Assembly (NCBI GenBank): GCA_025360125.1
Contig: JANYCU010000028.1
Span: forward strand, 1 to 35,153
Reading direction: 5' to 3'
DNA length: 35,153 bases
Source: Armatimonadota bacterium
GTDB lineage: Bacteria; Armatimonadota; Fimbriimonadia; Fimbriimonadales; Fimbriimonadaceae
Each line of letters begins with the position of its first letter. Position 1 is the first letter of the stretch. Both the position numbers and the translations under genes were made by a program. Positions 11,423-28,738 of the stretch are shown in pieces. Under the pieces are notes generated by a model that saw nothing but the letters and a program-made list of their open reading frames with translations, was not told the DNA's origin and made no database searches.

Positions 11423-13765
11423 CTAATTTGGTAGCACTCGATACTTGATTGTTGCTGGGTTGTTCCGGGTTGAGAAGATGGTGTTGTGCTGGACGACCAT
11501 TTTCGTTCCGGTCAGAATTGGCTCAGTGGTTCCCAGATTCCGTGCGTTACCGGGGAAGGTGCTTTGCAGAATAAAGAGGCTGAGGCGATGGCCCTTTTTG
11601 AACATATTCGCTCCGTCCCAGAGGAGTAGCTTAGCGCGATATTTTTTGCCCGGGGTCAGGAACCGTTGCTTATCGAGACCCTGGATATAGGAAGCGCGGA
11701 GCTTGCCAGTTTTGAAGATTGCCACGTGGCCCTTACCTGGATCCTGATCGGTTCCAACCGCGAAGAAATCAGTGTCCCTTGCTGAGCACTTAAAGTCAAA
11801 TTCAACCGTTACCGGTCCAGTGATGACTTGGTCCTTTTTGAACGGTTCTGATCGCAAAACGATATAGTTTTTTGGCAGCGACTTATCGTCGGCATACATG
11901 TTCTGACCTTGATCGCCGATGCCCATCGAATCTAGTCCGATTTTTTCGGTGCTTGGATCATAGTCTGACTTTGTCGACGTGCTCTTGGTCATTTCTTTGA
12001 CGAGCTTAGCAACAGACTTGGCACCGTTGTTTTCGGAACCAAATTGGAAGTAGCGGGTTTCCGGTTTGGACTCAACGGGTGGCCAATCGGCGGACGTATG
12101 CCACTTGTTTTCGCCCATGACAAAGTAACGTACTTTTGGCACTTTCTCGACCGAGACGGACTTGCCTTTCAGCCAAGTATCGAACCAACGAAGGTATTCC
12201 GAATCGAGTTCGAGGACGGCATCTTTTCCAAAATCAAGGTTTCCGACTTTGGTCGTAGTATTAAAGAAGTGAGTCCACGGGCCGTAAATGAGCCACTGCT
12301 TATTGTTTCCGCCGCCGCGAACAAATTGCCAGTTGCGCTGGGTGCCGATTTCGTCGCCATCGAACCAACCGCTGAGGTGAAACGCAGGAATCTTCACGGT
12401 TTTCATGAGGGCATCAAAGTCCCATCCTGGCCAAAGTGTTGAATTGTCTCGCTTGAGCCAATTGGTGAAAATCTTGCTGTTGAATCCGAGAAGCTTGTCG
12501 TCAACTTTGTCTATGGGCAAGGTGGTCAGCCCCTTCATGTTGGTGATTTCGTTGAGAGCGGTGAGCATGTTTTGCCCTTTTGGATTGTCAACAATTCGTA
12601 GCCACCAAAGGTCGGATAGTAAGGTGAGAACTCCGTTTTCGTACGGGATATTCCACATGGCACTCGATGGAGGCGAGACTTGGGGGACGATGCATTTCAG
12701 GGCGGGATGATGTTCAACTGCGGCGGCCCATTGGACAAATCCGCCGTAACTGGCGCCAATCATTCCGACGCTGCCGCTACACCAAGGTTGTTTACTAATC
12801 CAGTCGATGGTGTCGTAACCATCTTTTCGCTCGGTGACCATTGGGTCGAATGAGCCTTTGCTATCTCCAGTTCCCCGAACGTCTTGAACAATGAAGACGT
12901 AGCCTCGGCGTGCATAGGCATCGCCTTCTTCGGCGGTGAGCAGTCGGCCGTACGGAGTCCGTTCAAGGATCACGGGATACTTACCCTCGTCAGTGGGACG
13001 GATCATCGTGGCTTTTGTCATCACTCCGTCGCGGAGAGGAATATCAATTTGCAAAACCTTGGTTTTGTAGGTTGGCTGGCTTAATTCTTTGAATTTGGCG
13101 AGGGGATCTTCGAATGCAGATTCGTACCCGCGGCGAACCATCCTTAGCTTTTGGGATGGAACATCGAAGCCGACCAACGAGCCATCCTGATTGAAAACTG
13201 CTTTGAATCCAACTGTCTTGAGGTTGATATCCGCCGTGCGGACGGAGACGGTGTTGCCGTTGACTTGAATATTCTTGGCACCAGTTGGCTTCGTTCCAAA
13301 ATTTAGCAGCGTTGAGCCGTCAACGAGATACGTCAAAATGTCTTGCTTCGTATTGTCGCTCCATTTGATTGATTCGCTCAAGGAGCTCAACGTTTGAGGA
13401 TGGAATGTAGAGAACATTGGAAATGCTGGAGCAGTAGCATCTTCTTCGGCAGTGCCTCCTTCGGTCCTCGTCACGAGGGTTTTGCCATCTTTGAGTTCAA
13501 CTTTTAGATATCGAAGAGTCTTTGGACCTTGCTTCATCGTTTCGACAATCAAGAGAGCCGTCGGCCGCCCTTTGTCGGCAGTGACGGATAAGTGGGAGTC
13601 AATATCGAAACCCTGCAATTTGACGGTCGAGACGGAGTCAAATGACTTATCGGCTTTGGCAGAATAGTGATTGGTTCCAGCCAATACCCCGGAGAAATAG
13701 ATGTCGGAATCGATTTCTGGGGTTTGATGTAATGCAAACAAAACGGCGACTGGTGCAAAGAACAT
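11423..13765 (-). CDS. Exported CocE/NonD-family (peptidase S15-type) hydrolase
   Basis: 780 residues. An N-terminal hydrophobic stretch (MFFAPVAVLFALHQ) suggests export, although it is short. A region of about 220 residues with no recognised domain comes next. The alpha/beta-hydrolase domain then begins near KVLQIDIPLRDGVMTKATMI. The nucleophile elbow is GASYGG (Ser339), with LSGWFDGDE giving the Asp and YGPWTH the His. A C-terminal jelly-roll domain (X-Pro dipeptidyl-peptidase C-terminal type) includes KKYRAKLLLWDGANMFKKGH. Members hydrolyse peptides after proline, esters, or acyl groups such as in cocaine and cephalosporins, so the substrate is open. A TAAAAT element lies 8 bp before the ATG. 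Confidence 0.93.
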   Translation of the reverse strand: MFFAPVAVLFALHQTPEIDSDIYFSGVLAGTNHYSAKADKSFDSVSTVKLQGFDIDSHLSVTADKGRPTALLIVETMKQGPKTLRYLKVELKDGKTLVTRTEGGTAEEDATAPAFPMFSTFHPQTLSSLSESIKWSDNTKQDILTYLVDGSTLLNFGTKPTGAKNIQVNGNTVSVRTADINLKTVGFKAVFNQDGSLVGFDVPSQKLRMVRRGYESAFEDPLAKFKELSQPTYKTKVLQIDIPLRDGVMTKATMIRPTDEGKYPVILERTPYGRLLTAEEGDAYARRGYVFIVQDVRGTGDSKGSFDPMVTERKDGYDTIDWISKQPWCSGSVGMIGASYGGFVQWAAAVEHHPALKCIVPQVSPPSSAMWNIPYENGVLTLLSDLWWLRIVDNPKGQNMLTALNEITNMKGLTTLPIDKVDDKLLGFNSKIFTNWLKRDNSTLWPGWDFDALMKTVKIPAFHLSGWFDGDEIGTQRNWQFVRGGGNNKQWLIYGPWTHFFNTTTKVGNLDFGKDAVLELDSEYLRWFDTWLKGKSVSVEKVPKVRYFVMGENKWHTSADWPPVESKPETRYFQFGSENNGAKSVAKLVKEMTKSTSTKSDYDPSTEKIGLDSMGIGDQGQNMYADDKSLPKNYIVLRSEPFKKDQVITGPVTVEFDFKCSARDTDFFAVGTDQDPGKGHVAIFKTGKLRASYIQGLDKQRFLTPGKKYRAKLLLWDGANMFKKGHRLSLFILQSTFPGNARNLGTTEPILTGTKMVVQHNTIFSTRNNPATIKYRVLPN

Positions 13766-21364: not shown

Positions 21365-21400
21365 GCAGTCAGCAACTTTGGTTGCTGGCTGCTTTTTTTT
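21365..21400 (+). terminator. Rho-independent terminator of gyrA
   Basis: A 12-bp stem (21365-21376 with 21381-21392, one G-T pair) and a 4-nt TTTG loop, followed by eight T residues (21393-21400). The stop codon of the convergent acyltransferase gene lies at the end of the T-run. Confidence 0.9.
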
Positions 21401-22517
21401 ATTTCTGAAGGGATGGGGAAACCCCGGCAGACTTCTTACGAATCCACCTTCTGGCTGGCTCCTCGATATATCGGTAGCAAAGTCCAGAGGCAATGATAGT
21501 CACAGTGAGACAGATGAAAAAAGCCAAAAAGGTGTTTTCCGCATCAGTCTTAAGTACGCGATCCATTGACTTGTAGACAATGAGGATAGTGAATCCGTGG
21601 ATCAAGTAAAGCGAATAACTCGCCTCGCCTAAAAAGATGAACGCCCTTCGCAGGGCATTTGGCTCGCCGTTCACGGTGTGACCAGCCAGTCCAACAATCA
21701 AAAGCGAAGATGCCATCACACAGCCAAGTGTCCATGGGCTTTGCACGTAATTGAACGACTGGGCGAAAATGATCAGTAGGGCAGCCATCGCTCCATATTT
21801 GAGAATCGACATCAAATTGGTGTTGTTTTTAGCAAGGCTATAGACATAAAAGCTACAAATTCCGACCAGGAATTCGGGAAGGCGAAGGAGGGGAAATTGT
21901 TGAACCCATGGTTCTCCTGAGTCTCCTAGTTGATTCAAAATCAACATTCTCGGCAACCAGCTCAACAAGATACAGATGACCCAAATTGGAACAACGAACT
22001 TCTTGGTCGCCTCTATCCCTCTGAGTAGGAATGGGAACGACACGTAAAACAACAGCTCAACGGAGAGCGTCCAGCCTTGCGTCAACCAATGCGGGTGGTC
22101 ATTAAAATAGGGATACCAAGCGTGCAAGAGAAAGATTCGGCTCACGGTGTCGGTGGCAAGATAGGGGAGCCCGTATGAGACGCCCAAGAATTTCGCGTGA
22201 GAGATCATGAACGGTATTCCGACTATCAGGGCAAATAGATACATCGGGTACACCCTTGCGAATCGATTCGTGAAGTAGCTCTTAAATTTGAAAGTTGAAT
22301 TCACCAACTTTCCGTGGTAGTTGTAGGAGAGAATGAACCCTGACAGCACGAAGAAGATCGTGACGCCTTCTCCCCCGTGGGATATCCAGTTTTTGAAATA
22401 AGGTGGAATAGTGGCGCTGTTGGTGAAAACCGTTCCCCCGTGAAGCATGAACACGGCAAAAGCAGCAAAAAATCGGACAATTGTTAGGTTATCGAGCTTC
22501 TGTTTTTCTGGATTCAT
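21399..22517 (-). CDS. Acyltransferase family 3 (OafA/YrhL-type) membrane protein
   Basis: 372 residues from the ATG at 22517. A TTG at 22538 is the only upstream alternative. About ten membrane helices are visible. The family features are an N-terminal KLDNLTIVRFFAAFAVFMLHGG with the conserved His, then GVTIFFVLSGFILSY, and an RFARVYPMYL segment with the conserved Arg pair. These enzymes move acyl groups across the membrane to sugars of lipopolysaccharide, peptidoglycan or exopolysaccharide. The acceptor here is unknown. No glycan biosynthesis genes adjoin it. Its stop codon overlaps the T-run of the gyrA terminator. A TATACT element and a perfect palindrome lie about 80-105 bp upstream. Confidence 0.93.
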   Translation of the reverse strand: MNPEKQKLDNLTIVRFFAAFAVFMLHGGTVFTNSATIPPYFKNWISHGGEGVTIFFVLSGFILSYNYHGKLVNSTFKFKSYFTNRFARVYPMYLFALIVGIPFMISHAKFLGVSYGLPYLATDTVSRIFLLHAWYPYFNDHPHWLTQGWTLSVELLFYVSFPFLLRGIEATKKFVVPIWVICILLSWLPRMLILNQLGDSGEPWVQQFPLLRLPEFLVGICSFYVYSLAKNNTNLMSILKYGAMAALLIIFAQSFNYVQSPWTLGCVMASSLLIVGLAGHTVNGEPNALRRAFIFLGEASYSLYLIHGFTILIVYKSMDRVLKTDAENTFLAFFICLTVTIIASGLCYRYIEEPARRWIRKKSAGVSPSLQK

Positions 22518-22591
22518 GGTGGCGCGGTTCCGTGCCAAGTTTAAACTCGACTACTCCAATATCAATAATCGGTGCTTGATTACCAATTTGC

Positions 22592-22597
22592 AGTATA
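22592..22597 (-). promoter_or_regulatory. -10 promoter element of the acyltransferase gene
   Basis: TATACT on the minus strand, 74 bp before the ATG at 22517. A TTGAAG at 22622-22617 (minus strand) could be its -35 box at a 19-bp spacing. Confidence 0.45.
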
Positions 22598-22605
22598 ACT
22601 CGGCA

Positions 22606-22622
22606 TTGAAGTTAGACTTCAA
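22606..22622. promoter_or_regulatory. Perfect 7-3-7 palindrome, candidate operator
   Basis: TTGAAGT-TAG-ACTTCAA. It covers the stop codon of the metallo-hydrolase/rhodanese gene and sits over the -35 box and spacer of the acyltransferase promoter. No T-run follows on either strand, so a repressor site fits better than a terminator. Confidence 0.4.
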
Positions 22623-24033
22623 GCAGGGTTCTATCAACTTCCCCGCCCGTTGCCAGATAGCCTTTGTAGCCTGCGCTCATCTCGAAGAGGTTACGGAACC
22701 CTTGTTTTCGGAGGACGGTGTATGCGATCGGAGATCGGTTTCCTCCCGCGCAGTGGATGACAAGCGGTTTATCGGTTGGTATGTCGGCAAGTCGGCTTTC
22801 GAGATAGCCGAACGGAATCCAGGTTACGCCGGGGATGTGCCCCTCTTCGTATTCGCTGCGTCCGCGCACATCGAGGATGTTGACTTCGCCGAGAGCATTT
22901 CTCCCGATTGCGTCTTCGACCGAGATGAGATTGATCTTCTCGATCTGATTGCTCGGAATCGAGTCGAAAGGTACCCAACCAATGACGTGATCAAGACCAA
23001 TTGACTCCATCGACCGGGTGGCGGCAACCATGTCTTCTTGAGTGTTGGAAATGATCATGATGTCTTTGTCATACGGCGCATGCCACCCGGTCCAAGTGGC
23101 GAAGCTCCGGCACAGTCGACACGATGCAACTCCGACCGATCCGGGAAAGAATCCGATTCGGACTGCGCTTGCGGGACGGATGTCGATGACGAATGCGTCT
23201 TTGTTAGCTAACGCGGAAGGTAGAAGCTGGATTGGAATCTTGAGTGGGCCAAGGATCGCGGGACCCACCTTGTTCATCCGCTTCATTTCTTTGAAGTAGA
23301 GAGGCGGTTCGGGCTGTCCGCTAAGGACTCCATCGACAAATTCTTGTTCGGTTTTACATTTTAGGGCCCAATTGACTTTTTTCTGATAACCGAGCACGCT
23401 GACGGGAACTCCGCCGAGGGCTTTTCCGCAGGCCGACCCTGCTCCGTGGGCGGGAAAGAGGAGGAGGTGGTCGGGCATTGCGGTCGTGAATTTTTGGAGA
23501 CTTTGGTAGAGAGTTCTGGCTCCCTTCTCCATGGTGTCTTTATATCCCGCGACGCGATCGAGCAGGTCGGGGCGGCCAACATCGCCGACGAAAATGAAGT
23601 CTCCGGTGAATGCACCGAGGGGTTCCTGGGTATCGGCTTGGTCAGTGATGACGAAAGCCAGATGCTCGGGAGTGTGGCCGGGCGTGTGCCAAACGTCTAA
23701 CTTTATGCGGCCAATCTCGATCACATCGCCATGCTTGATCAGCCTGACGTTTGGCTCGTTGGCGAAGGCATATTTCCAATCGGTGTCGCCTTCGTCGGAA
23801 AGATAGAGCGTTGATTCAGTTCGTTGCGCAAGTTCTCGGCTGCCGGATAGGAAGTCGGCGTGGATGTGGGTTTCGGTAACGGCAATGATTCGCATCGCCT
23901 CGTCGGACGCGGCCTGGATGTATTGGTCGATGCTTCGATTCGGGTCAATGACCATGGCTTCACCGGTCGCGTAGCAACCTATGAGGTAGCTTGCGTGAGC
24001 CAATTGCTCGTCATAAAACCGTTTTAGGAACAT
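22612..24033 (-). CDS. MBL-fold metallo-hydrolase with two rhodanese domains (CstB-like persulfide enzyme)
   Basis: 473 residues from the ATG at 24033, preferred because GAGGAAACG directly precedes it and MFLKRFYDEQLAHASYLIGC fits the family start. An upstream in-frame extension to 24096 does not. The metallo-beta-lactamase domain has THIHADF (His56, His58, Asp60), HTPGHT, a GDFIFVGDVG Asp and FPAHG, giving a persulfide-dioxygenase-type iron site. Two rhodanese domains follow. The second has the active Cys in HCAGGNRS. The first lacks one, reading IISNTQE where a Cys loop would be. The layout equals that of CstB and related enzymes that oxidise persulfides and move sulfane sulfur in the cytosol. 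The divergent caspase gene starts 110 bp away. Confidence 0.92.
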   Translation of the reverse strand: MFLKRFYDEQLAHASYLIGCYATGEAMVIDPNRSIDQYIQAASDEAMRIIAVTETHIHADFLSGSRELAQRTESTLYLSDEGDTDWKYAFANEPNVRLIKHGDVIEIGRIKLDVWHTPGHTPEHLAFVITDQADTQEPLGAFTGDFIFVGDVGRPDLLDRVAGYKDTMEKGARTLYQSLQKFTTAMPDHLLLFPAHGAGSACGKALGGVPVSVLGYQKKVNWALKCKTEQEFVDGVLSGQPEPPLYFKEMKRMNKVGPAILGPLKIPIQLLPSALANKDAFVIDIRPASAVRIGFFPGSVGVASCRLCRSFATWTGWHAPYDKDIMIISNTQEDMVAATRSMESIGLDHVIGWVPFDSIPSNQIEKINLISVEDAIGRNALGEVNILDVRGRSEYEEGHIPGVTWIPFGYLESRLADIPTDKPLVIHCAGGNRSPIAYTVLRKQGFRNLFEMSAGYKGYLATGGEVDRTLLEV

Positions 24034-24143
24034 CGTTTCCTCATGTGGAACAGATTTCATTTTACAGCATGGTGGATTGTCGCGATCAAAAAACAATTTT
24101 CTGCGTCTCGATCATCATCCTCAGTCGTCTCTTACATGGCTTT

Positions 24144-27100
24144 ATGAAGAGATTTTTACCGTTGATTGCATTGGGAATTTTTTTGGCAGAAACCGTCTTC
24201 GCACAAGCCCCTCAACCATCAGACGAGATTCAGATTCCCCAACTGCAACCCAAAAAGTGGGCGATCTGTATCGGCGTGAGCAATTATGAGTCGTTAGGAA
24301 AGCTTCGATTTGGTGCGAAGGACTGTATCTCGTTCGCCAATACGTTGAAGACTGAATTAGGATTTACCCAAGATTCAGTTTCAGTTTTAGCCGATCAAGA
24401 AGGCTTAGTGAATGCCAACGCCGAGACCGTAAATCGAGCGTTGGACTCAATGTTGTCCCGAACAACCCTTGACTCTGGAGACCTGTTCATCGTATATTTC
24501 TCTGGCCACGGAATGGGTTTGTCCGACGGTGACTACTGGATGCCAAACGATGCGACGGTGGCGAACGCCCACGAAAAGGGAATTTCAGTCCAAAAAATTC
24601 TCGAGCGACTGGCCAAAAAAAAGCTTCGTAATGTCGTGGTCGTCTCGGACGCTTGCCGCGCTGGCGGGCAAAATCCATTTGGTCGGAAGCTGATCGACCT
24701 GGGAAAGAAAACCAACATTGGAGTCCTTTTGGGATGCGCGCCAGGAATGAAATCGTACGAAGCGCCAAACCTGGGTCAAGGGACTTTCACCTATTTTCTT
24801 AATCGAGCAATCCAAAAGAAGTCTGCGGTTGATCCTTCCATTGGTGCGATGCTCCTCTCAAAACTGGGCGATAGTGTCGCGAAAAGTGTCGAAGATTACA
24901 CGCGGCACGATTATGGAGACAATGCTCAAAAGCCCTCAATCTATGCCGAAAAAGAACAGGAAGTCGTCCTCGGAACCTTTGCTCCCAAAAAGGAAGAGCT
25001 CACGCTATTCCTTAATTCTTACAAGCAAAGGCTTGGAATCGGTGCCTTCACTTCGCTGCAATACAAGGACGCCTTAGCTGACCAAGTTGCGGTCCTTTGC
25101 CAATCGAAAAGGCCGGATGAGGCCCTATCTATTTTACGAGTTCTACAGAGCTACGGCACCCTCGAGCCCTACGCGCTCTACGCGTACGCAAAAATTTGCA
25201 GGAACCGAGGCGCCAGCTACGAATTGAATTTGGTTCTTCAAAAGAACAATCTGGATTTTCCAGATTCGATCTATGACGATATGGCGGTTATTTATGGGCA
25301 GGTCAATGCTGTCGGACAGGCTCGTTATCTCAGCGCACTCTGGAATCTTTATAATTCCGAGGTCCGGGACACAATGCTTCCTGCAATGGATGGACTAATT
25401 CAACATTTGTCTGAACCGGACAAAAACCAATTGTTGTTCGCAAACCGATTGCTCCATGACTATCCCGCTGACGGCTTGGTCATAGCCTTTGCAGCTCTTC
25501 TTAAGAAGAGCATCGACCCAACTAAGCCCGAAATAGACGCTGCCTTTAAGCAAGTCCAGATTCTCGACAAAGAAAGCAAATTTGTCGATGCTGCTAGCCG
25601 AATAATGTACCGGACATACTTGCGTCGCAATCAATATGATTTGGCTAAAGTAGTTGTTGAGGGTGCCAAAGTTCGTATGCCTGACAGCGGATATTGGGAA
25701 ATGCGCTCCCTCATTATTGCCACTCTCATACATGACCCTGCCTTAGTGGATAGAGCCAGATCTCTCCTTGCTTCTTCGACAAACGGAGACAGTATTTACT
25801 CTTTGTTGACTGTTCTCCGAGCCCGTTCAATCGACCTGGAGCCCGAATTCCGGGCCGCGGCCCAAAGGCTCCCGAACGAGCTGAACGTTCAGGTCGCAAA
25901 TTGGGTTGTCAAAACTGCTAAGAATTTAAAGGACTTTCAGCCTGTTCCTGATAGTCTCGTGAAAATGGCGCAAGGCCATTTGTCCGTCAGCAAGCTAGCT
26001 TACGGTGGGCTGGACACGCTATTGTCTTTCTTTTCAAACAGCGACAAGTTGTCAGCATATCAAGTGATATCAGCGAGGCGTAAAATGGCCAACGACTTGG
26101 CTCAGGACCTAACCGAAATTGACAATGATCCTGAATTGGTCGTGTTGCTAAGCAAACTCATCAATAATTCCGATGAGAGCTATCGATTGGCCTTTTTGAG
26201 CCAAGTCGGTCCTTGGCAGAAGATTGAAGAACGACTAATAACCAACAAACCGGACTATCTAAAAGAACTTTACATTTGCCAGTTGAATAATGGCTTCAAT
26301 GGGTTGGCAGACGAGACGCTTGCCAAATTGGAGAAAGTAGAGGGAGTCGATAGCGGAGTTCTCGTTCGATCGGGCCTCGACTCGCTTCTTCATGGGGACA
26401 TCGCACATGCCGCAATTTTGATCGACCGTTTGAAGAAGATCAATCCGATTGGCATTGACGCATCATTTCTCACGTTGCTTACAACTCATTTAGCTTTTTT
26501 AAAGGGCGATTTGACGGCAATCGACAGAATGACCAAAGACCTTAAAGAGTCCTTTTCCGTTGATGGAGGCGCCCTTTTGTACATCAGGTACTTGCAATAT
26601 GTCGGGCAAAGTGGCGCCCTTCCATCCGAAGAACTACTCAAAATGTTGATCGAACCTTGGCCAAACTACCATGACCTGTGGAGCATTGCCTTGGTGAAGG
26701 TGACTTCTCGGTGTCGACAAGTGAAGGGTTCGAAGGAAAAAATGGTGGCTGAAGAGTTACCTTACTGGGCAGTCAGCGAATCGCTGAACGGCAATTTTGA
26801 AGAGTTTGGCTACAACGACAAAGCGAATATTGCCGAATACGTGGGTCGGTATGAGTTGAGCGGATACTTCTCGCTCAGCAACGACACTGTAGACGGCTCG
26901 ATGTCCTTTGAAATCGACAAAGACGGCAACTTTAAGGGCACACTTGATTTTCCAACCGAAAAACAGAAGATCAATCTGACCGGCAAAGTAAATGGCTTTG
27001 GCCGTGTCGCTTTGGACCTCGATATCGGCGGGAAAAAGGTCGACGGAGCGTTTGCAATCGTGCCATTTAAGGTGTACACCGCCGCTGATGATCGAACATT

Positions 27101-27188
27101 ACCGAGCCTTCAGCTAGTGATCGGTTCCAATACAGCCTACCGATTCGGCTTTTCAGTGACTGGCAAGAAGAAATCCGCACCTCAATAA
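24144..27188 (+). CDS. Exported caspase-like (peptidase C14) protein with helical repeats
   Basis: 1014 residues from the ATG at 24144, chosen because it gives a clean signal peptide (MKRFLPLIALGIFLAETVFA, cleavage near AQA). Upstream in-frame codons to 23991 have no such logic. The caspase domain spans about 38-260: KWAICIGVSNYES opens it, His122 is in FSGHGM, and Cys171 is in SDACRAG, so the His-Cys dyad is intact. About residues 265-860 are helix-rich with TPR-like pairs. About 895-1005 is beta-rich (YVGRYELSGYFSLSND onward, then LTGKVNGFGRVALDLDIGG) and may form a small barrel. Export of a caspase-like protease is uncommon. The substrate is unknown. It ends at a terminator shared with the convergent ECF sigma gene. 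Confidence 0.9.
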   Translation: MKRFLPLIALGIFLAETVFAQAPQPSDEIQIPQLQPKKWAICIGVSNYESLGKLRFGAKDCISFANTLKTELGFTQDSVSVLADQEGLVNANAETVNRALDSMLSRTTLDSGDLFIVYFSGHGMGLSDGDYWMPNDATVANAHEKGISVQKILERLAKKKLRNVVVVSDACRAGGQNPFGRKLIDLGKKTNIGVLLGCAPGMKSYEAPNLGQGTFTYFLNRAIQKKSAVDPSIGAMLLSKLGDSVAKSVEDYTRHDYGDNAQKPSIYAEKEQEVVLGTFAPKKEELTLFLNSYKQRLGIGAFTSLQYKDALADQVAVLCQSKRPDEALSILRVLQSYGTLEPYALYAYAKICRNRGASYELNLVLQKNNLDFPDSIYDDMAVIYGQVNAVGQARYLSALWNLYNSEVRDTMLPAMDGLIQHLSEPDKNQLLFANRLLHDYPADGLVIAFAALLKKSIDPTKPEIDAAFKQVQILDKESKFVDAASRIMYRTYLRRNQYDLAKVVVEGAKVRMPDSGYWEMRSLIIATLIHDPALVDRARSLLASSTNGDSIYSLLTVLRARSIDLEPEFRAAAQRLPNELNVQVANWVVKTAKNLKDFQPVPDSLVKMAQGHLSVSKLAYGGLDTLLSFFSNSDKLSAYQVISARRKMANDLAQDLTEIDNDPELVVLLSKLINNSDESYRLAFLSQVGPWQKIEERLITNKPDYLKELYICQLNNGFNGLADETLAKLEKVEGVDSGVLVRSGLDSLLHGDIAHAAILIDRLKKINPIGIDASFLTLLTTHLAFLKGDLTAIDRMTKDLKESFSVDGGALLYIRYLQYVGQSGALPSEELLKMLIEPWPNYHDLWSIALVKVTSRCRQVKGSKEKMVAEELPYWAVSESLNGNFEEFGYNDKANIAEYVGRYELSGYFSLSNDTVDGSMSFEIDKDGNFKGTLDFPTEKQKINLTGKVNGFGRVALDLDIGGKKVDGAFAIVPFKVYTAADDRTLPSLQLVIGSNTAYRFGFSVTGKKKSAPQ

Positions 27189-27191
27189 AAC

Positions 27192-27219
27192 AAAAAACTC
27201 CGGTTTCCCGGAGTTTTTA
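27192..27219. terminator. Bidirectional terminator between caspase and sigma genes
   Basis: ACTCCGG (27197-27203) and CCGGAGT (27208-27214) around a 4-nt loop, with A-runs on the left and T-runs on the right. It can serve both the plus-strand caspase gene and the minus-strand sigma factor gene. Confidence 0.88.
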
Positions 27220-27240: not shown

Positions 27241-27834
27241 TTAGCCAAAGATTGGCGTCAGGTCTCGTTGCAGCATTGCTCTTGCTCGAAACAGCCAACT
27301 TTTGATCGTTCCTTCGGGCTTTTCCAATTTCGTGGCAATCTCGCTCACATCAAGGTGATCGAAGTGTCGCATCACGATGATCTGGCGATATCGCCATGGC
27401 AAGCGCTTGATTGCCTCGTTGATTTGGCCTTGAACCAATAGACCTTCTGCTCTTTCCGTCGCTGCTCCCCCATCGGATAGCGAGTACTCGACATTGTCGA
27501 TTGATTCCACATTTGTCTTTCTTTGTCGGGCCAGGTCAACGATGCAGTTGAGGCATATTCGGGTTAACCATGGTCGGACTGGTCGGCTTGTATCGAAATC
27601 TTTGAGACTTCGGTAGGCTTTGACGAAGGTCTCTTGGACAACGTCGTTGGCGTCCTCAGTGTTGTGCAATTTCCTCAGAGCAAGACCGGTTAGCATTGGT
27701 CGGTAAGTGTCCATGAAGAGGTCGAACGCGACCTCATCTCCTTTTCGGATTTGCTCGATAAGGTGGGACTCCCAGCTCTGACAATAGTTATTCATTTTTT
27801 CGGATTCTCCGTAGTTCTCTTGAGTAAATCTCAT
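27241..27834 (-). CDS. ECF-type RNA polymerase sigma factor (sigma-70 family)
   Basis: 197 residues from the ATG at 27834. An internal ATG at 27795 with GGAGA upstream would give 184. Region 2 contains EDANDVVQETFVKAYRSLKDF and RPWLTRICLNCIVDLARQRK. Region 4 contains LPWRYRQIIVMRHFDHLDVSEI followed by KPEGTIKSWLFRARAMLQ. There is no region 3, which places it in the extracytoplasmic-function group. No anti-sigma factor or zinc-finger anti-sigma gene adjoins it. Its upstream neighbour is a divergent exported protein gene and its downstream neighbour converges. The promoter region has TACAAT and an inverted repeat, so autoregulation or repression is possible. Confidence 0.93.
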   Translation of the reverse strand: MRFTQENYGESEKMNNYCQSWESHLIEQIRKGDEVAFDLFMDTYRPMLTGLALRKLHNTEDANDVVQETFVKAYRSLKDFDTSRPVRPWLTRICLNCIVDLARQRKTNVESIDNVEYSLSDGGAATERAEGLLVQGQINEAIKRLPWRYRQIIVMRHFDHLDVSEIATKLEKPEGTIKSWLFRARAMLQRDLTPIFG

Positions 27835-27846
27835 TACTCTGCAGTT

Positions 27847-27852
27847 ATTGTA
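27847..27852 (-). promoter_or_regulatory. -10 promoter element of the ECF sigma gene
   Basis: TACAAT on the minus strand, 12 bp before the ATG at 27834. The matching -35 position falls inside the inverted repeat at 27858-27880. Confidence 0.45.
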
Positions 27853-27857
27853 TCAGA

Positions 27858-27880
27858 AAACTTAAAGCAGACTTAAGTTT
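27858..27880. promoter_or_regulatory. Inverted repeat overlapping the sigma promoter, candidate operator
   Basis: AAACTTAA-AGCAGAC-TTAAGTTT, an 8-bp perfect stem with a 7-bp spacer and flanking T residues on the plus strand. It is AT-rich, so it would be a weak terminator hairpin. Its placement over the -35 region of the sigma gene promoter fits a regulator-binding site better. Confidence 0.4.
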
Positions 27881-27958
27881 TTTTAATTTTTGCTAGGTCT
27901 TTAAGACTATTTCGACTTTCCCTAAGGAACCCGCTTCTCTTTTGCCGACCATGTAAAT

Positions 27959-28738
27959 ATGCGAGGAGTTTGGGGAGTCCTTTCGAAGACAGGCGCAATC
28001 ATGTTGGTTTTTGGGGGAACAGTCCATGCCATTGGGGGAATTCGTGCCCATGATTCGTTCTTTACGGTCGTCGTTGACTCTGGGCTCGATTCTCGCGTGG
28101 ATGCTTATGTTGGTCTCGTTCGGACCTCGAAAAAAGAACTTAAGGGTCACGAGCATAATGTCGTGAAGCTTCGAGAAATAAGCGAGAAATGGATCACCCA
28201 GGCTAAGCAAGGCAAGATTTCGCAGATCTATCCTGGATACTATGGCGAATCCCTCTTGGATGGCCCCAAAGGACAAATTTTTAACATGTGCACCAGCCTT
28301 TCAAACAAGCTAACGGAGTGCGCCGATCAGGAAGCCATGGAAGGCAACCCTGCTGCTTGTCTCGACGCGGTAAGGGCAATCGAGGTGATCAACATTGTTC
28401 GATACGGCAGCTATGAGACGATGTTCACATCGACTGCTTACCTTCGCAAGCCGATCAAAATTTTAAAGTCAAATATTGCGATGCTCACGCCTGAAGTGAC
28501 GGCTCGACTTGAGAAGGCACAAGATGTGAAAAGCCGTGAGGGCAAAACCGAACTATTGACCCAGTTGGTCAATCGTCAAAAAGTTCAATACACCGTTCGA
28601 TACGGAAAGGTCATGGCAAGTGATGATGACACTGGTTATTTGACATTCATGAGACGAAAAGGAAATCAGATTGCTGCCGAGCACTTCTACGGTTTTGATC
28701 GTGCGGTCGAGATTTCAGACGCTAAAAAAGGCAAGTGA
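27959..28738 (+). CDS. Exported protein of unknown function
   Basis: 259 residues, not recognised. A hydrophobic N-terminal segment (TGAIMLVFGGTVHAIGGI, about 11-28) acts as signal or anchor. The mature part is helical, with three cysteines close together (FNMCTSLSNKLTECADQ and NPAACLDAV), and ends in a basic tail (EISDAKKGK). The ATG at 27959 is the only start giving the hydrophobic segment. No Shine-Dalgarno site is clear. It is divergent from the ECF sigma gene across a 124-bp region with a candidate operator, and lies just before the flagellar operon on the same strand. It could be a target of the sigma factor or a flagellar accessory, but neither is shown. Confidence 0.75.
   Translation: MRGVWGVLSKTGAIMLVFGGTVHAIGGIRAHDSFFTVVVDSGLDSRVDAYVGLVRTSKKELKGHEHNVVKLREISEKWITQAKQGKISQIYPGYYGESLLDGPKGQIFNMCTSLSNKLTECADQEAMEGNPAACLDAVRAIEVINIVRYGSYETMFTSTAYLRKPIKILKSNIAMLTPEVTARLEKAQDVKSREGKTELLTQLVNRQKVQYTVRYGKVMASDDDTGYLTFMRRKGNQIAAEHFYGFDRAVEISDAKKGK

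Follow-up and report, generated by a model that had tools for sequence, protein, structure and literature searches.

Most discussion of bacterial caspase homologues treats them as cytosolic or membrane-bound proteins of cell death and defence, and few of them have known partners. The closest described relatives of the protein reported here are the orthocaspases or prokaryotic metacaspases (C14), some of which carry TPRs; in one survey, 46 sequences had a single N-terminal helix that may be a signal peptide, and TPR was one of the most frequent partner domains (PMC3501461). In the human paracaspase MALT1, residues Asp365, Asp462 and Glu500 are held responsible for the specificity for arginine at P1 (PMC4357240). 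The TPR-CHAT protease Csx29 of Craspase (type III-E CRISPR), which is accompanied by Csx30 and CASP-sigma, cleaves Csx30 and so frees an ECF-like sigma factor (PMC10028731). BepA (YfgC), a periplasmic quality-control metallopeptidase with TPRs, acts on outer-membrane proteins, which it matures or degrades (PMC8423444).

The window, i.e. the whole stretch of 35,153 nucleotides that was analysed, forms contig C1 of a draft genome of 4.1 Mb from the Armatimonadota, and it encodes a caspase of 1014 residues. The protein shares the caspase fold, the His-Cys dyad, the acidic S1 residues and the TPR fusion with the orthocaspases, to which its family adds a predicted exported architecture of 1000 residues, a C-terminal beta domain and the linkage to an exported M48 metallopeptidase. 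MALT1 is, together with plant metacaspases, the best structural match and has the equivalent acidic residues, but the window protein is bacterial, probably exported and devoid of death or Ig domains. Csx29 likewise combines a caspase-like protease with a TPR region and has a sigma gene nearby; in contrast, the window protein has an N-terminal C14 domain instead of a C-terminal CHAT domain, a predicted export signal and a sigma neighbour that is no conserved partner of it. Since TPRs and probable signal peptides were already noted in PMC3501461, an exported TPR-caspase as such is not a new kind of protein. A defined family tightly coupled to an exported BepA-like protease was not found in the literature searched, in which no paper joined caspases with M48 and the periplasm and none of those listed joined Armatimonadetes with caspases.

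The caspase gene is an unbroken reading frame with an ATG start (Table 1). Pfam Peptidase_C14 (PF00656) matches residues 37-268 with 68.1 bits (cut-off 21.4) and is the sole Pfam match at E<=0.1, a CHAT domain not being found. The initial annotation had read a long TPR-like helical body and a beta-rich C-terminus from the sequence and proposed a structure prediction. The AlphaFold2 model, computed from an alignment of 23 homologues (pLDDT 81.3, pTM 0.76), bears this out and has the following domain order: a helix at residues 5-20 followed by disorder at 20-30, the caspase domain (38-280), about 36 helices and a beta domain with eight strands. A Pfam TPR match is absent in the window protein itself, while 10 of 23 relatives match TPR_19 and a search with the family profile retrieves designed TPR proteins at E 1e-54. 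In the 23-sequence alignment the beta domain contains three nearly invariant glycines (G901, G928 and G953). The matches listed by the structural searches cover only the caspase domain and the helical repeats.

Table 1 Features of the caspase locus in the window and family loci with an adjoining M48 gene
Feature	Coordinates or genomes	Strand	Basis or remark
Block of acyltransferase, metallo-beta-lactamase-rhodanese and caspase genes	21399..27188	.	missing between gyrA and sigma in G002, G009
Exported TPR-caspase, 1014 aa	24144..27188	+	subject of the finding; ORF, Pfam, AlphaFold2
Putative Sec-type signal peptide, residues 1-21, likely cleavage ...VFA-Q	24144..24206	+	sequence, model, hydropathy
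Caspase (C14) domain, residues 37-280	24252..24983	+	Pfam, alignment, model
His122 codon CAC	24507-24509	+	in YFSGHG
Cys171 codon TGC	24654-24656	+	in SDACRAG
Helical-repeat body, TPR-like, residues 284-877	24993..26774	+	model, family profile, Pfam in relatives
C-terminal beta domain, residues 901-1005	26844..27158	+	alignment, model
Terminator-like hairpin between convergent caspase and sigma genes	27193..27218	.	z -4.3
ECF sigma factor, neighbour outside the caspase system	27241..27834	-	Pfam, synteny
Exported protein 27959, no known function, divergent sigma partner, outside the caspase system	27959..28738	+	conserved neighbourhood
Direct adjacency of caspase and M48 genes	G004, G011, G019, G025, G031, G034, G126, G128, G144, G154, G172		family loci

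Among solved structures, Arabidopsis metacaspase 4 and human MALT1 come closest to the caspase domain, with VIA-align Z scores of 23.4 to 6w8r and 23.0 to 3uo8; the MALT1 structure 3v4o gives a TM score of 0.74 by target against the model. The His122/Cys171 dyad that had been noticed at the outset is confirmed, and both residues (GHG and DxC motifs) are invariant in 34 aligned members. In a profile alignment, Asp60, Asp169 and Glu206 fall on MALT1 Asp365, Asp462 and Glu500; Asp169 and Glu206 are invariant in the 34 members and Asp60 nearly so. Because the acidic residues of the MALT1 arginine pocket are conserved, the caspase is predicted to be an endopeptidase that cuts after Arg, possibly Lys, rather than Asp. 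The best NCBIfam match of the domain, caspase_w_EACC1 (NF047832), reaches 55.3 bits and stays under its cut-off of 140. Bacterial pseudo-orthocaspases are known (PMC6426788), and the domain could in principle be a regulatory remnant on what is chiefly a TPR scaffold. We consider this very unlikely: His and Cys are retained in each of the 34 aligned members, whose S1 acidic residues change at most conservatively, while it is the TPR body that drifts.

The N-terminus of the window protein, MKRFLPLIALGIFLAETVFAQ, resembles a Sec signal peptide. Export of the family was judged by hydropathy and motif: a hydrophobic 12-mer is found at the N-terminus of 33/33 members (Kyte-Doolittle mean >=1.76, median 2.7), compared with a median of 1.4 for 1044 other N-termini. 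The signal peptide proposed earlier is thus matched by a signal-like sequence that the family retains. Action outside the cytoplasm, which the initial annotation had also put forward, is supported, since the family conserves the hydrophobic N-terminus although identity in the body is only about 20%. On these sequence features we conclude with high confidence that the window protein is an exported caspase of the active type.

The family occurs in 29 of 291 Armatimonadota genomes (E<=1e-20). Searches of 60 relatives gave 22 strong members besides the window protein; named relatives were found with the alignment as query, and none with the window protein as lone query. In the gene calls the members are 735 to 1109 residues long, mostly near 1000, and every one examined has the dyad, a hydrophobic segment ahead of the domain and a helical body. 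Peptidase_C14 lies above the gathering score in 23/23 relatives, and the domain profile cleanly splits the family (E 1e-84 or lower) from shorter caspases and WD40-caspases (E 1e-30 or higher). Over their whole length the proteins share about 20% identity with that of the window, the TPR-like body being poorly conserved, and the invariant columns of the 23-sequence alignment all lie inside the caspase domain. The sole full-length close homologue, in G001, is 32% identical.

Several further caspase genes were seen in these genomes. The genome of the window carries a second paralogue (C4:36711). In four genomes (L034, L039, L042 and L043) this branch has the same gene order, together with lipB/rnhB-like and argH/ftsE/ftsX-like genes, and it is therefore regarded as vertically inherited. 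In G050, a shortened TPR-caspase of 735 residues is followed by a separate reading frame matching the family (L041 7521-10746), so that the gene may be frameshifted or split. Shorter caspase reading frames of about 350 to 880 residues are clustered side by side in several genomes (L056, L057, and L053 at 12222-13268). The public record JADZEW010000001.1, titled Methanoregulaceae archaeon, matches the Armatimonadota-family genome G030 (L074) and is apparently mislabelled or mis-binned.

Clustering of the genes around 31 caspase loci yields a single recurring family, found next to the caspase at roughly one locus in three. It consists of exported proteins of about 600 residues with an HExxH motif, a Pfam Peptidase_M48 domain (41.7-64.9 bits in five partners, gathering score 20.3) and TPRs. 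The catalytic HExxH and a downstream Glu are invariant in 27 members, and the signal-like N-terminus is kept. BepA is the first PDB match of the M48 model (pLDDT 89), and both are exported M48 metallopeptidases followed by TPRs. The partner differs from BepA in its length and in an additional C-terminal beta region, and it scores only 29.9 bits against the NCBIfam equivalog M48_BAM_BepA (cut-off 570). An hhalign comparison gives no support to shared ancestry of the C-terminal beta domains in the caspase and the M48 protein (probability 0.2%).

The M48 gene is present in 28 of the 29 genomes with the caspase and in 2 of the 262 others. The caspase occurs without it only in G127, a genome that is 74% complete. 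The two genomes with M48 alone, G020 and G067, indicate that the metallopeptidase can work without the caspase. Among 61 relatives, all 16 with the caspase have the M48 gene as opposed to 1 of 45 without it (Fisher p 8e-14); the association holds inside the genus (10/10 vs 0/10) as well as among the other genera of the family. The one exception among these relatives, G020, carries two M48 genes within 7 kb (L187 8430-15455). A GyrA tree of 48 genomes shows 15 caspase changes and 14 M48 changes, which go in the same direction in a mean of 9.4 of 10 branch-disjoint supported comparisons and never in opposite ones (p 0.002-0.004). Kinship does not explain the association, since joint gain and loss recurs in these independent comparisons.

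The two genes are also physically linked. They adjoin directly in 11 of 35 family loci (Table 1), a single gene separates them in G005, and G050 has an M48 fragment at a contig end, which brings the loci with neighbouring or almost neighbouring genes to about 13 of the 35; an extra MAG beyond this set also carries the pair (L092). Most pairs are convergent. In G034, G128, G144 and G172 they are co-directional with M48 first, and in the first three of these genomes the genes overlap by 1-4 bp, the pair of G172 coming close to an overlap. Where adjacency is absent, the M48 gene lies elsewhere in the genome. This includes the clade of the window (G000, G001, G002, G009, G015 and G018), in which the genes sit on separate contigs or at a great distance from each other, and where it is co-occurrence that carries the link; the single M48 copy of the genome of the window is at C56:1820-3568, on a separate contig from the caspase. 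Taken over all genomes, a functional link between caspase and M48 protein appears likely, and we hold it with good confidence. Two loci deserve separate mention. An in-frame TAA lies close to the 3' end of the M48 gene of G019 (L050 5677-7554) and is either an assembly error or the mark of a broken copy beside an intact caspase. In G050, a WD40-caspase with at least 13 WD40 repeats and a C-terminal caspase domain adjoins the same M48 family (L055 13180-18346); a TPR-caspase and an ECF/anti-sigma-like pair lie a few kb away.

Could the caspase instead be a secreted clan CD protease, similar to gingipain or clostripain, that digests or processes proteins outside the cell, with the M48 protein as a folding helper or a sign of shared lifestyle? 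The predicted signal peptide, the Arg/Lys-type S1 pocket and the patchy distribution would suit such an enzyme, but no sorting or secretion domain was recognised, and the long TPR-like arm suggests fixed partners over bulk digestion. Moreover, the near-perfect link to one M48 subfamily exceeds what a shared lifestyle needs, and we regard this explanation as unlikely. A conflict or cell-death effector in the envelope, held in check by the M48 protein in the manner of a toxin and its regulator, is in our judgement equally improbable. Its patchy gain and loss, the several paralogues in genomes such as G050 and a weak generic 'caspase' match in PADLOC (E 6e-14) speak for it; the PADLOC match is, however, limited to the caspase domain, no match to a phage family was found, and no further defence gene was recognised beside the caspase in the window. 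In some clades, furthermore, the loci are vertically conserved among housekeeping genes, as in the four loci of the C4:36711 branch.

The convergent ECF sigma gene reported earlier is present in the window. Together with the precedent of Csx29, this arrangement would allow an envelope-stress unit in which the caspase cuts a regulator restraining the sigma factor, as the initial annotation had in part envisaged when it joined the two genes into a stress-sensing unit. The neighbourhood survey leaves little room for this, and a strong terminator-like hairpin parts the two genes. Of 61 related genomes, 46 have the sigma orthologue, most of them with no caspase of this kind, and where both occur it adjoins the caspase in the window only; in G001, for instance, C55 carries the orthologue and C33 the caspase. 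A sigma-type gene of any kind adjoins the caspase in 3 of 35 loci, namely the window and two of the 34 others (L035 and L055). These three genes are non-orthologous and of different kinds; the one next after the caspase in G001 is a non-ECF factor with sigma regions 2, 3 and 4. The two closest genomes with synteny, G002 and G009, have the contiguous order gyrA - sigma - 27959 - flgB - flgC - fliE - fliF, which is that of the window minus the acyltransferase, metallo-beta-lactamase-rhodanese and caspase genes. No pairing of caspase and sigma factor recurs, one of the outcomes that the initial annotation had named as refuting its proposal, and we rejected the unit as extremely unlikely.

A possible pairing of the caspase with the protein encoded at 27959 was dismissed as well. 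This gene goes with the sigma gene: homologues were found in 21 genomes, and in 19 of them, by comparison of coordinates by hand, they are divergent from the sigma gene at a distance of 125-435 bp. Used as a control on the GyrA tree, the 27959 gene shows no link to the caspase. The sigma-27959 pair (27241-28738) is conserved in at least 19 Fimbriimonadales genomes; in the window as well as in G002 and G009 its position is immediately upstream of flgB-flgC-fliE-fliF. The 27959 protein, which has no match in Pfam, is a candidate for the missing regulator, or for a target, of the ECF sigma factor.

We propose that the caspase is a Sec-exported cysteine endopeptidase of the MALT1/metacaspase type that works in the envelope with the exported M48 zinc metallopeptidase, a reading to which we assign a probability of about 0.6. 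Its site of action would be the cell envelope, in the periplasm or on the outer side. The helical arms of caspase and M48 protein would hold envelope or secreted clients, or each other, and the caspase would make a limited cut at Arg or Lys. This cut may either switch the metallopeptidase on or open a client for the metallopeptidase to degrade; the order of the two activities and the identity of the clients are guesses. The low conservation of the TPR body would fit clients that differ between members. More tentatively, and at somewhat less than even odds, the two proteins might form an obligate cascade, in which an Arg/Lys-specific exported caspase and a BepA-like metallopeptidase process or destroy envelope clients. 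Such a system would be a periplasmic counterpart of caspase cascades, hitherto undescribed, in the Armatimonadota.

For the exported branch of bacterial caspases, comparative genomics here names a specific partner and predicts a cleavage specificity. The function of the exported caspase is thereby directly testable, with two proteins, one predicted cleavage rule and several species with overlapping genes.
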